Translations under genes and position numbers: made by a program
The notes under the pieces: generated by a model
Seen by the model: the letters and a program-made list of their open reading frames with translations, nothing else
The model's database searches: none
What the model was told of the DNA's origin: nothing
Shown here: positions 22,619 through 26,134 of the stretch, in pieces
How positions within the stretch are numbered: the first letter of the stretch is position 1
Layout: every line of letters starts with the position of its first letter
Origin: Mucilaginibacter sp. UR6-11
Lineage (GTDB): Bacteria; Bacteroidota; Bacteroidia; Sphingobacteriales; Sphingobacteriaceae
Assembly: GCF_020880695.1 (NCBI RefSeq)
Contig: NZ_JAJIWO010000001.1
Location: 682,001 to 746,000, forward strand
Reading direction: 5' to 3'
DNA: 64,000 bases

Positions 22619-23602
22619 ATGAAGATACTGGTAAGATTGCCTAACTGGCTTGGTGATGTAGTTATGAGTACGGCTTTCATCGGTGCGGTTAAACAGTTTT
22701 ATCCGTTGGCGCAGGTTGATATCATTATTAAAAAAGAGTTAAGCTCTATCGCCTCATTGATCCCCGGGCTAACCAATATTCACTCTTTTTCAAAAGACGA
22801 GTATAAAGGGCTGGGCGGTGTATACCGCTATGGCAAAACGTTGCGCTCCTATAACTACGACATTTTCTTTACCCTGCCTGATTCCTTATCGTCGGCAGTA
22901 ATGGGTAAGGCAACCGGCGCCAAACAGCGCATCGGTTTTAGTAAAGAAGGCGGCTTTTTTTTACTGACCAAAGTTTGCAGGCGCCCGCCCAACGTGCACC
23001 GGGTTGATGAGTACCTGTCTGTATTGGAGCAGATTAATGAAATGCCGGTTACCGGGCGTAAAGTTATGCTTACCGCCAATGAGGTGAAACCCAACAACCT
23101 GATCCTGCTTAATTTCAACTCGGAGGCCGATTCAAGAAGAATGCCACTGGCCAAAGGCAGGGCATTATTGAATTTGCTCACCCATACCTTTACCGGCTAT
23201 AAACTGGGCCTATTGGGCGGGCCCAAAGACGTAGTTTTTATAGAGGAGATTTTGGTTGATGCCGCAAATATTGATCGCATAGAGAACTACGCGGGTAAAA
23301 CCACGTTGGCCAGCCTGACCAATTTGATGGCCGGTGCAAAAGTTTTGCTGACTACCGACTCGGGCCCGGCTCATTTGGGTAATAGTTTAGGCTTACCGGT
23401 GATAGCCCTGTTTGGCGCCGGCAATGAAAACAATACCGCGCCCTATAATAAAAGCAATTTAACCGTGTTGCGGGCCGGGCAGTTAAGTTGCGAACCCTGT
23501 GTACGCAACGAATGTAAATTATACGGTATACCCAAATGTATGGAGTTATTGGATGAACAAAGAATTATTAACGCATTGAGCTTATATTTAAACCATGCTT
23601 AA
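22619..23602 (+). CDS. waaF: Glycosyltransferase family 9, ADP-heptose:LPS heptosyltransferase-like
   Basis: 327 residues. The start MKILVRLPNWLGDVVMSTAF is the classical WaaF beginning, with the GD motif that contacts acceptor. The C-terminal Rossmann domain has TTDSGPAHLG near 246-255, the nucleotide-heptose site, and a late Cys cluster (CEPCVRNEC). It adds heptose to the lipopolysaccharide inner core from ADP-heptose at the inner membrane. Its stop overlaps the next gene's start by 8 bases, implying coupled translation. Exact acceptor and sugar are inferred from family. Confidence 0.88.
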   Translation: MKILVRLPNWLGDVVMSTAFIGAVKQFYPLAQVDIIIKKELSSIASLIPGLTNIHSFSKDEYKGLGGVYRYGKTLRSYNYDIFFTLPDSLSSAVMGKATGAKQRIGFSKEGGFFLLTKVCRRPPNVHRVDEYLSVLEQINEMPVTGRKVMLTANEVKPNNLILLNFNSEADSRRMPLAKGRALLNLLTHTFTGYKLGLLGGPKDVVFIEEILVDAANIDRIENYAGKTTLASLTNLMAGAKVLLTTDSGPAHLGNSLGLPVIALFGAGNENNTAPYNKSNLTVLRAGQLSCEPCVRNECKLYGIPKCMELLDEQRIINALSLYLNHA

Positions 23603-24161
23603 AGATGAAATAGCTAATGCACTTAAAGTTGTTCAGGACGGCGGCATTATCCTATACCCTACTGATACCATCTGGGGTATCGGCTGTGACGCCGCGAATA
23701 CTGAAGCTGTACAGAAGATCTATCGCCTTAAACAACGCAGCGAAGCCAAAAGCATGATCATTTTGCTGGATACCGACAACAAACTGGCAAGCTATATACA
23801 GGAGGTGCCTGAACTGGCTTATAACCTGATTGAATTTGCCGAAAACCCGTTAACGCTGGTTATGCCGGGTGCGCGCAACATTTCGCCGGCGTTGGTCGCT
23901 GCTGATGGCAGTGTAGGTATCCGGGTGTCGAACCATCCGTTTTGCCAGGGGCTAATACAGCGTTTGCGCAGGCCGCTGGTATCAACATCGGCTAACATCA
24001 GCGGCAAGCCGTCGCCGCAATACTTTTCGCAGATCGACCAGGAGATCATTGACGGGGTTGATTATGTGGTAGATGTTGACCAGCACAGCATGGAGATCAA
24101 AAACCCGTCAACCATCATGCGGTTATCGCCCGACGGCAGGTTCGAATTTTTGCGGAGATAG
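23595..24161 (+). CDS. tsaC: L-threonylcarbamoyladenylate synthase (Sua5/YrdC/YciO family)
   Basis: 188 residues, the short single-domain form without a C-terminal Sua5 extension. Motifs: GGIILYPTDTIWGIGCDA (substrate pocket), IYRLKQRSEAKSMIIL (basic KxR site), and VSTSANISGKPSP. The enzyme makes threonylcarbamoyl-AMP from threonine, bicarbonate and ATP, the first step of tRNA t6A37 synthesis. A YciO-type paralogue with another role cannot be excluded. It overlaps waaF by 8 bases. It ends in a small hairpin and a 554-base gap rich in repeats precedes the CCA gene. Confidence 0.92.
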   Translation: MLKDEIANALKVVQDGGIILYPTDTIWGIGCDAANTEAVQKIYRLKQRSEAKSMIILLDTDNKLASYIQEVPELAYNLIEFAENPLTLVMPGARNISPALVAADGSVGIRVSNHPFCQGLIQRLRRPLVSTSANISGKPSPQYFSQIDQEIIDGVDYVVDVDQHSMEIKNPSTIMRLSPDGRFEFLRR

Positions 24162-24175
24162 GCAGCAGCTATCTC
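24155..24175 (+). repeat. Small hairpin overlapping the tsaC stop codon
   Basis: GAGATAG (24155-24161, containing the TAG stop) and CTATCTC (24169-24175) form a perfect 7-base stem with a 7-base loop. There is no T tract, so termination is doubtful. Confidence 0.4.
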
Positions 24176-24193
24176 TCGGCACTGAAACAGCGC

Positions 24194-24409
24194 AGGTGAT
24201 CCAAGTTAAAATATGGATCACCCGGATCACCTAAAATTTATAATCATTTAATAATCAACCACTTGATTTAAAAAGCGGATCACTTTGGATCAGGCTTATT
24301 CGTCAGGATTTCTAAACATAAATCCATATTAATATTCTGATAATCAAACAATTGAAAATCGGCTATTTTTCGCTAATTTTTTGGTAGCGGATCAGTAATA
24401 TGGATCACC
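24194..24409. repeat. Cluster of GGATCA motifs in the tsaC-cca gap
   Basis: In about 215 bases the motif GGATCA occurs seven times, mostly as GGATCAC: inverted at 24197-24202, then direct at about 24215, 24224, 24277, 24287, 24389 and 24402. Two adjacent sites read GGATCACCCGGATCACC. The spacers are AT-rich. This could be a binding-site array or the wreck of a repeat element. No reading frame of interest is visible. Confidence 0.6.
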
Positions 24410-24444
24410 CGTCTAAAAAAATTTACAAACGCTGAATCTACGCC

Positions 24445-24650
24445 CTTGTTGGTGTTGTCACCAACAAGTACCATACTGTTTAATTTAGCAGTAACCGGCC
24501 CGGTGCATAGTTGTTGGTGACAACACCAACAACGGCGGTCGTGTTGCAACGGCGGTCGCGTCACAGAAGCTACTGTTTAATTAGCAGTACCCCGGCCCGG
24601 TGCCCAGCCATTGGTGACAACACCAACAACGGCAATCGCGTCACAGAAGC
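24445..24650. repeat. Hairpin array with a diverged tandem duplication
   Basis: Three hairpins share the stem TTGGTG/CACCAA. The first (24445-24468) has a perfect 10-base stem CTTGTTGGTG with loop TTGT. The second (24511-24532) has a 9-base stem and loop ACAA, and is the inverse complement of the first. The third (24611-24626) has a 6-base stem and loop ACAA. Hairpins two and three lie in a direct duplication: unit A 24474-24570 and unit B 24571-24650 both begin TACTGTTTAATT and end TCGCGTCACAGAAGC. Unit A carries an extra 17-base internal duplication (ACGGCGGTCGTGTTGCA). No gene is seen here. Confidence 0.75.
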
Positions 24651-24715
24651 CAAATATGTTTTGCACGCGTTGCAAACAAGGGCAAAACAGTAATTATTAT
24701 TAGCTTTGCAACATC

Positions 24716-26134
24716 ATGAAGGCGCATCTCAAACATCACGTATTTACCGTTATATCGCAGCTTGCCGGCCAGCAAAACATGCCGGCTTACGCTATCGGCG
24801 GTTTTGTACGCGATATTTTTTTAGACCGGCCCTCAAAGGATATCGATATTGTTATCATTGGTAATGGCATTGCCTTCGCCGAGGCCGTGGCTGCCAGGCT
24901 CAAAGTAAAGCTGGCAGTATTTAAAAACTTCGGCACAGCGTCATTAAAATACCAGGATCTTGAAATTGAATTTGTTGGCGCCCGCAAAGAATCATACCGC
25001 CTTGATTCGCGCAAACCTATTGTAGAGAACGGCACCTTAGATGATGACCAGAAACGACGCGACTTCACTATCAATGCACTGGCTATTTCGCTGCACCCGG
25101 ACACTTTTGGCGAACTGATTGATCCGTTTGAGGGGATAAAGGACCTGGAAGCAAAACTGATCAGGACCCCGCTAAATCCTGTCGAAACTTTTTCTGACGA
25201 TCCGCTACGCATGATGCGGGCTATCCGGTTTGCATCGCAGCTAAACTTCAGGATAGATATTATCGCAGTTGAGGCTATAAAAAACAATGTCGACCGGATC
25301 AGCATCGTATCACAAGAACGTGTTACCGACGAGCTGAACAAAATCATCTTATCACCCAAACCGTCTATTGGCTTTAATTATTTGTTTGATACGGGTTTAC
25401 TGCATAAGATATTTCCGCAGATGACAGCACTTTACGGTGTTGATTATATTGACGGGAAGGGTCATAAAGATAATTTTTACCATACCCTGCAGGTACTGGA
25501 TAATATTTGCGAAACCACCGGCGACCTTTGGCTGCGCTGGGCAGCCATACTGCATGACATTGCCAAACCGCCTACCAAACGCTTTGAACCCGGCCACGGC
25601 TGGACATTTCACGGGCATGAGGATAAAGGCGCACGCATGGTACCGAAAATTTTCGCACAGTTAAAACTGCCTTTGAACGAAAAAATGAAACTGGTGCAAA
25701 AGCTGGTGCAACTGCATTTAAGGCCTATCGTACTTTCGCAGTCTATCGTCACAGATTCGGCAGTGCGCCGGTTGCTTTTTGAGGCAGGCGATGACATTGA
25801 GGGACTAATGTTGTTGTGTAAAGCAGACGTTACTACCAAAAACGAGTACAAGGTTAAAAAGTACCGCAACAATTTTGAGCTGGTTCAACAAAAATTAAAA
25901 GACGTTGAAGAGCGTGACAATATCCGCAACTGGCAGCCGCCGGTTACAGGGACAGATATTATGGAATTGTTCGGGATAAAAGAGGGACGCGAGGTGGGTA
26001 TTATCAAAAATAAGATCCGCGAAGCGATACTGGAAGGCGAGATTCCCAACTCGCGCGAGGAGGCAATTAGCTTCACAATTAAAACTGGCGAAGAAATTGG
26101 CTTAAAAGTTGTGGCAAGCTCAAACACAAATTAA
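24716..26134 (+). CDS. cca: CCA tRNA nucleotidyltransferase with HD domain
   Basis: 472 residues. The N-terminal nucleotidyltransferase head has GGFVRDIFLDRPSKDIDIVI with the two catalytic Asp residues, then the neck motif RRDFTINALAI and DPLRMMRAIRFASQL. A C-terminal HD phosphohydrolase region begins near residue 255, with the metal-binding pair in ILHDIAKP near 278 and further His residues (HGHED). The enzyme adds or repairs the CCA end of tRNAs. The HD domain suggests the bacterial form with phosphatase or phosphodiesterase activity. Poly(A) polymerase is the alternative, less likely as sole copy. Confidence 0.93.
   Translation: MKAHLKHHVFTVISQLAGQQNMPAYAIGGFVRDIFLDRPSKDIDIVIIGNGIAFAEAVAARLKVKLAVFKNFGTASLKYQDLEIEFVGARKESYRLDSRKPIVENGTLDDDQKRRDFTINALAISLHPDTFGELIDPFEGIKDLEAKLIRTPLNPVETFSDDPLRMMRAIRFASQLNFRIDIIAVEAIKNNVDRISIVSQERVTDELNKIILSPKPSIGFNYLFDTGLLHKIFPQMTALYGVDYIDGKGHKDNFYHTLQVLDNICETTGDLWLRWAAILHDIAKPPTKRFEPGHGWTFHGHEDKGARMVPKIFAQLKLPLNEKMKLVQKLVQLHLRPIVLSQSIVTDSAVRRLLFEAGDDIEGLMLLCKADVTTKNEYKVKKYRNNFELVQQKLKDVEERDNIRNWQPPVTGTDIMELFGIKEGREVGIIKNKIREAILEGEIPNSREEAISFTIKTGEEIGLKVVASSNTN

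Follow-up and report, generated by a model that had tools for sequence, protein, structure and literature searches.

The window analysed here, a 64-kb stretch of the genome of Mucilaginibacter sp. UR6-11, contains two co-directional open reading frames, one tsaC-like (23595–24161; match to TIGR00057 of 162 bits) and one cca-like (24716–26134; match to the PolyA_pol head domain), with a group of hairpins sitting between them. The spacer that separates the two genes measures 554 bp (24162–24715), as given in a preliminary description made from the letters alone, and the three hairpins listed there were recovered by an exact search of the whole window for the pattern TTGGTGNNNNCACCAA (TTGGTG-N4-CACCAA), which has only three matches, at 24449–24464 (loop TTGT), 24514–24529 and 24611–24626 (loop ACAA in both). 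That this is more structure than a chance spacer would hold is also correct, since 100 shuffles yielded no TTGGTGNNNNCACCAA hairpin (three observed, zero expected). The same is true of the diverged direct repeats, spaced by 97 bp (24495–24544 and 24592–24641, 84%) and by 80 bp, and of the 17-bp internal offset copy (24530 and 24547). The features of the spacer are collected in table 1.

Table 1. Features of the spacer between the tsaC-like and cca-like genes (window coordinates).
Feature	Position	Strand	Basis
GGATCA word element, ends GGTGATCC...GGATCACC	24195–24409	+	middle-block matches, own-genome alignments
Left block of the word element, words at 24197–24202 (minus), 24215–24220 and 24224–24229	24197–24229	+	sequence; conserved in 12 own-genome copies
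Middle block GGATCACTTTGGATCA, two words	24277–24292	+	sequence, alignment, genome search
Right block, words at 24389–24394 and 24402–24407	24389–24407	+	sequence, alignment
REPIN, inverted REP doublet, GCC-type foot outside each arm	24441–24537		inverted pair, fold, geometry recurring in five genomes
REP hairpin 1, 10-bp stem, plus-strand loop TTGT	24445–24468	-	sequence and pattern search
REP hairpin 2, 10-bp stem, plus-strand loop ACAA	24510–24533	+	sequence and pattern search
17-bp offset copy and decayed tandem copy of the REPIN right half (hairpin 3 core 24611–24626)	24547–24650	+	repeat families
TAATTATTATTAGCTTTGCAA, part of the gap also found before cca in relative G319 (locus L141, gap 24 bp)	24691–24711	+	locus comparison

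The first two hairpins make up a single 97-bp inverted repeat, whose arms (24441–24470 and 24508–24537) are 93% complementary. Folding found the region strongly structured as a single strand: in single-stranded DNA of 24438–24541 both arms pair to give one long hairpin (-35.7 kcal/mol, z = -8.6). Hairpins 1 and 2 are a REPIN, that is an inverted doublet. Hairpin 3 belongs to a tandem duplicate of the right half of this REPIN; of its stem just the 6-bp core is kept, and its 22-mer shares 68% identity with hairpin 1. The loops TTGT and ACAA are reverse-complementary because hairpin 2 is hairpin 1 read on the other strand. Their complementarity follows automatically from the inversion and is therefore no evidence for the kissing-loop RNA pair suggested in the preliminary description.

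Copies elsewhere in the genome and the RAYT gene

In this genome (4.62 Mb in 20 contigs), the 16-base core of the hairpins occurs exactly 16 times, in six clusters, and its reversed control not at all. Wherever open reading frames were listed, which covers the window and two further clusters, the cores lie outside them. The densest cluster (C2:130192–131401) brackets on both sides an open reading frame of 175 aa (C2:130512–131039, minus strand; a different contig from that of the window) that carries the motifs NHIH and YIHTNP. One hairpin lies 14 nt beyond its stop codon, and C2:131157–131283, upstream of the gene, shares 95% identity with positions 24441–24567 of the window across 127 nt. 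Some further arrangements can be noted in the same genome. At C2:130245–130512 (L013) there are tandem copies of about 115 bp, in each of which a hairpin accompanies the 3' end of the RAYT gene; C12:694851/695073 (L015) and C19:167639/168039 (L016) are single hairpins within longer direct repeats, spaced by 222 and 400 bp, respectively; and a second, divergent RAYT (P0002) is found on C17 (L202, 4960–5712), preceded by the hairpins GTAAGCG/CGCTTAC and CAAGTG/CACTTG, loop TGGA.

The 175-aa product matches the NCBIfam model REP_Tyr_transpos (REP-associated tyrosine transposase) with an E-value of 7e-20 and 71.4 bits, under the cut-off of 80, and the Pfam model Y1_Tnp with 15 bits only, again under the cut-off. 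A homologue with 79% identity (L062) was modelled by AlphaFold from an alignment of 62 sequences, with a pLDDT of 93.8; single-sequence input gave 36, and the alignment was used instead (62 of 80 loci, three having been dropped for a stop codon and 15 left out). When this model was submitted to Foldseek, the best match in the PDB was 4er8, a complex of TnpAREP and a REP hairpin (E = 2.4e-8); IS200-type transposases came next, and the residues N56, H57, H59 and Y133 (L062 numbering) proved invariant across the 62 sequences. Judged by its motifs and by the model, the protein is a RAYT with the HUH motif, a catalytic tyrosine and the TnpAREP fold. Its closest named relatives come mostly from Mucilaginibacter.

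A comparison with the known classes is instructive. The passages on subclass 2.6 in Quentin et al. (2018; PMC6006769) present it as mostly made up of Bacteroidetes, with atypical flanking structures that lack GT[AG]G and have copies elsewhere in the genome, and as characterized by NH[LIV]H, WQ and YIH[QN]NP, a length of about 179 aa and a median HuH–Y distance of 82 aa. The RAYT described here resembles these proteins in its origin from Bacteroidota, its length (175 aa versus a median of 179), the motif NHIH, the flanks without GT[AG]G and the copies found elsewhere, and differs from them, as far as that description goes, in having YIHTNP rather than YIH[QN]NP. A glutamine follows the tryptophan in HLIWQ and a glutamate does so in QFWERN; the HuH–Y distance is about 74–77 aa. 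By sequence and by that published description, the RAYT and its hairpins appear to fit subclass 2.6 except for details of two motifs.

Across the family, the hairpin and the transposase keep company. A close RAYT (at least 180 bits, a threshold set after seeing the data, where the scores drop from 181 to 161 bits) is present in 13 of the 251 genomes of the family, all 13 of which have the exact hairpin, as against 12 of the 238 genomes without a close RAYT (Fisher's test, 2.8e-15, a figure inflated by relatedness). Within the genus the corresponding counts are 11/11 and 12/41 (p = 2.2e-5, inflated in the same way). The 12 genomes that have hairpins without a close RAYT call for the assumption of a second RAYT or of RAYT loss; they include G036 and G072, with ten and 26 hairpin copies, where the best RAYT among the matches listed is about 33% identical. 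Positions listed for 12 of the 25 genomes with matches include at least 21 adjacent hairpin pairs within 130 nt; 11 of these listed pairs, from five genomes, are spaced by 60–70 nt and all have the order TTGT–ACAA, and the ten pairs with other spacings are of mixed polarity.

The association was followed further at 110 RAYT loci from Bacteroidota and related bacteria, reduced to 103 non-redundant ones. The hairpin finder used requires perfect stems, which would make pair-by-pair counts of covariation circular; the far-window control, the test of both sides and the Mantel test described below are independent of this requirement. Of 202 windows reaching up to 300 nt from a RAYT gene, 155 contain a hairpin with a stem of at least 9 bp, compared with three of 189 windows 1000–1300 nt away, and hairpins flank the gene on both sides at 71 of the 103 loci, being missing on one or both sides at the remaining 32. 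The stem words are diverse (TGTTGGTG, GGTCGGTG, GGTCTGTG, GGTTCGTG, TGTTGGCG and TGTTGGTC are among them) and agree between the two sides of a gene: the mean best identity of the inner eight bases at the 71 loci is 7.49 of 8, with 63 loci at 7 or 8, whereas shuffled partners give 6.21 (sd 0.08, maximum 6.52). When the GTTGGTG type is set aside (n = 42), the values are 7.17 and, for shuffled partners, 5.38 (sd 0.15). The distances between the RAYT proteins correlate with those between the stems (Mantel r = 0.455, 90 of the 103 loci; none of 5000 permutations reached this value). Compensatory changes in the stems, which the preliminary description had proposed as a sign of a structured RNA, thus do exist, but they separate RAYT families and indicate a DNA hairpin that the RAYT recognizes rather than an RNA.

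These hairpins also share a foot. In the 128 GTG-closed hairpins, to which the count was restricted, the four bases 5' of the 10-bp stem on the strand with the pyrimidine loop mostly read (C/T)GCC (C 61 or T 30; G 89; C 108; C 108, position by position), and the 3' side has no consensus. The canonical one-sided 5' GT[AG]G foot is absent from them, a 5' foot of the GCC type standing in its place. It faces away from the RAYT gene upstream and downstream alike, pyrimidine-loop hairpins numbering 55 versus 8 upstream and 4 versus 62 downstream. A GTG-closed hairpin is missing to a distance of 350 nt from four homologues of at least 63% identity, namely L034 (a truncated frame), L060, L063 and L070; L060 and L063 carry GAG-closed hairpins instead.

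The REPINs and BIMEs of characterized TnpAREP systems (group 2 in Escherichia coli, group 3 in Pseudomonas and Stenotrophomonas) resemble what we describe in these respects: a short palindrome with a foot on the 5' side only, inverted doublets, dispersal, a RAYT gene flanked by its own hairpins and a transposase of the HUH and Y1 kind with a fold like that of 4er8. They differ in their foot, which is GTAG or GTGG rather than mostly (C/T)GCC, and the stems studied here are mainly GTG/CAC-closed with polar loops of 3–5 nt. Copies are few as well: typical REPs are stated to exceed 100 copies per genome (PMC2817692), and against that figure the 16 cores found here, mostly clustered, are a low number. 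Members of the IS200/IS605 family share the HUH/Y1 fold (2xma and 2vjv are among the fold matches) but not the inverted placement of the hairpins around the gene or their dispersal as doublets. A REPIN of the ordinary kind is thus well supported, and the RAYT to which it belongs probably falls in a subclass that has received little study. The GCC foot is not claimed as new, the 'atypical structures' of subclass 2.6 having been compared by their description in PMC6006769 only. What is added is the explicit pairing of RAYTs and hairpins with a GCC foot across Bacteroidota, together with the element of changing words that lies alongside. With 103 loci, 71 of them having hairpins on both sides, at which each RAYT is paired with its own stem word and mostly with GCC instead of a GTAG foot, a code for hairpin recognition becomes testable by swapping natural pairs.

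The spacer in relatives and the origin of the hairpins

The tsaC gene was found in 117 of the 120 genomes of the genus, and of 30 tsaC loci fetched, our own included, 27 are from relatives in which tsaC is followed by cca (L142 and L160 have no cca match). None of these 27 has the hairpins between the two genes. In two of them cca starts merely 24 bp (L141) and 22 bp (L146) after tsaC, and the other relatives have unrelated sequence in the gap; TAATTATTATTAGCTTTGCAA before cca is common to the window and L141. At least most of the spacer is therefore lineage-specific. No clean empty site with the exact boundaries of the REPIN was found at tsaC–cca among the relatives examined, the spacer sequence had no match in the phage and plasmid records searched, and the exact hairpin had none in IMG/VR.

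The hairpins of the window are of the REP type belonging to the genome's own RAYT, they have the REPIN arrangement, and they stand at a site that is hairpin-free in the relatives examined. We consider it highly probable (about 0.88) that 24441–24650 comprises a REPIN and a decayed duplicate, in tandem, of its right half, and that this non-autonomous element owes its dispersal to that RAYT, which is of the Bacteroidetes type (TnpAREP subclass 2.6, RAYT group 5). On this reading its position between tsaC and cca is incidental. How such an element may have moved is suggested by better-known systems. REPINs are mobile doublets according to PMC3116915, and the account given in PMC8266576 has TnpAREP recognizing the single-stranded REP and not its complement and cleaving at CT beside the structure, with a 5' tetranucleotide helping in the choice of the site; the same source notes that REP recognition has been studied in the laboratory for RAYT groups 2 and 3 and that a 5' guide beside the hairpin is a known model for IS200/IS605. 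By analogy with the characterized TnpAREP enzymes, the RAYT would bind the single-stranded hairpin, the 5' GCC foot would act as the guide in place of GTAG, and the tyrosine would cleave near the hairpin; the doublet could thus be mobilized from single-stranded DNA, and strand transfer would place a copy between genes.

Three other explanations have to be weighed. Uses of REPs by the host, as terminators, in the protection of mRNA 3' ends or as sites of protein binding, are mentioned for REPs generally in PMC6006769, and REP-derived sites co-opted in such a way would agree with the placement of the window copy between co-directional genes and with the location of hairpins outside open reading frames in the two other clusters that have such frames listed. 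However, the stems are not followed by a run of T, and the hairpins have not been kept at this site, being absent from all 27 relatives; we regard co-option as very improbable. Slightly less probable still is a structured RNA or a leader by which cca (or the end of tsaC) would be regulated, kissing loops being one conceivable means. The preliminary description had offered a regulatory RNA, a leader for cca and a small dispersed element side by side. Strong hairpins just upstream of cca and a stable fold speak for an RNA or leader. This reading fails on the comparative evidence, namely the 27 hairpin-free relatives and the spacers of 24 and 22 bp, and we reject both the leader and the kissing-loop RNA; besides, the core recurs in five other clusters of the genome, the two of which with listed frames have different neighbours, the complementarity of the loops stems from the inversion, and the window has no Rfam family at gathering thresholds. 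A search of 24100–24760 against Rfam with E-values up to 1 gave a microRNA model as the sole match, at 21.7 bits versus a gathering score of 200. Of the three earlier proposals, only the small dispersed element has thus been borne out, by the very search of the same genome and of relatives that had been recommended. Debris of passive tandem duplication and recombination, spread without a RAYT, could explain the tandem copies in the window and those of about 115 bp near the RAYT gene, which take in its 3' end, but is the least credible option of all given a doublet geometry that recurs in five genomes and stem words that match around each RAYT.

A second element in the spacer, built on changing words

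The left half of the spacer is taken up by another element, separate from the REPIN and absent from the preliminary description, in which seven GGATCA words are distributed over three blocks (table 1). With up to two mismatches, its middle block occurs at 36 places in the same genome, and the reversed control at none. Twelve of 54 first-look candidates were scored by alignment and all 12 matched, yielding copies that align over about 217 bp at 73–100%. None of the 11 copies other than that of the window overlaps an open reading frame of at least 90 codons, and they sit in divergent, co-directional and convergent gaps alike. The 16-mer GGATCACTTTGGATCA is also present in 28 contigs of IMG/VR, none of which has four or more words nearby; these matches look like chance on that account and were rejected as word elements.

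A pattern of the framework free of the words found copies in six of 120 genomes (control, zero), and in these relatives the framework is retained, the words being different as a set. Thirty copies were fetched of the 45 places, among them eight word-independent copies from G000 (separate, earlier word counts for G000 include copies found by a GGATCA query). The predominant words are GGATCA in G000 (56 in eight copies), GAAACA and GTAACA in G281 (37 and 18 in seven copies) and in G312 (31 and 24 in seven copies), GAATCA in G292 (19 in five copies, one of them without it) and GAAACA in G322 (11 in two copies) and G259 (six in one copy), GGATCA occurring once in all copies outside G000 combined. 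One word is present at least three times in 29 of the 30 fetched copies, the exception being L260 from G292. The words mostly agree within a copy, but copies from G281 and G312 mix GAAACA with GTAACA, and genomes such as G275 and G319 have several word types, in different copies (the framework anchor missed six of seven G319 loci and two of seven G275 loci; the words of G319 were read by eye). The pattern is therefore one of subfamilies and not strictly of one word per genome. At an orthologous site, upstream of a gene that resembles trxB by eye, the GGATCA words of G000 are matched in order and orientation by GTTTCA words in G281; G319 has GATTCA, G275 is without such words and G312 keeps a remnant. 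Differences of this kind between orthologous sites may reflect change in place or re-insertion. Between tsaC and cca, G281 carries a copy in the opposite orientation. At six loci (L265, L271, L284, L285, L286 and L288), the right end of the element comes with an extra hairpin like ATACCTAAG-ATT-CTTAGGTAT.

Miniature inverted-repeat elements (MITEs) have inverted ends, are dispersed, lack coding capacity and depend on a transposase partner with the same ends. The word element is like them, and like iteron arrays, in being dispersed, in lying outside open reading frames in the 11 other copies, in its inverted ends (GGTGATCC and GGATCACC) and in its repeated short sites; it is unlike both in that the word differs as a set between copies or species, the framework remaining constant. 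No transposase partner was found for it. Titles and the openings of abstracts, in a literature survey with most subscription journals outside its scope, contained no description of such an element.

One candidate partner did emerge. A complete copy of the element lies directly upstream of an open reading frame for an AAA_25 (DnaB-like) ATPase with a C-terminal helix-turn-helix (C17:105838–106971; L202, 3839–4972), homologues of which occur in 66 of 100 genomes of the genus. In G281 and G312 the orthologues of this ATPase (80% identical) are preceded by GTTTCA words, which the dispersed copies of these two genomes carry as well. In three genomes (G000, G281 and G312), then, a copy upstream of an ATPase gene has the same kind of word as the dispersed copies. 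Such words are absent within 450 nt upstream of the orthologue in G292 (78%) and of a homologue in G275 (66%), where the partner may therefore be another protein. A word of the form G-N3-CA is found at least four times upstream at ten of 30 ATPase loci, compared with none of 30 tsaC loci and eight of 103 RAYT loci (those of 110 with enough upstream sequence), a modest test, as some of the 30 ATPase loci are close relatives. The link between the word element and the ATPase is suggestive only. We tentatively raise the possibility, which we think somewhat doubtful as it stands, that the 215-bp element represents an undescribed class, in which an AT-rich framework would bear a recognition word of six bases some seven times. 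The words would change as a set (GGATCA, GAAACA/GTAACA, GAATCA, GGAACA, GGTACA), in step with a DnaB-like helix-turn-helix ATPase acting in trans. If this is confirmed, a single protein and its dozens of scattered sites would shift their specificity jointly, in a system that could be mobile or regulatory, and each change of word would amount to a natural experiment in such a shift. The idea that the ATPase and the RAYT form a single mobile unit was rejected, a RAYT match being present at two of the 30 ATPase loci (and at none of the 30 tsaC loci). Many of the ATPase homologues listed (L213–L240) have, besides word elements, an inverted repeat like TACTGACAAAACACTGTCA close upstream.
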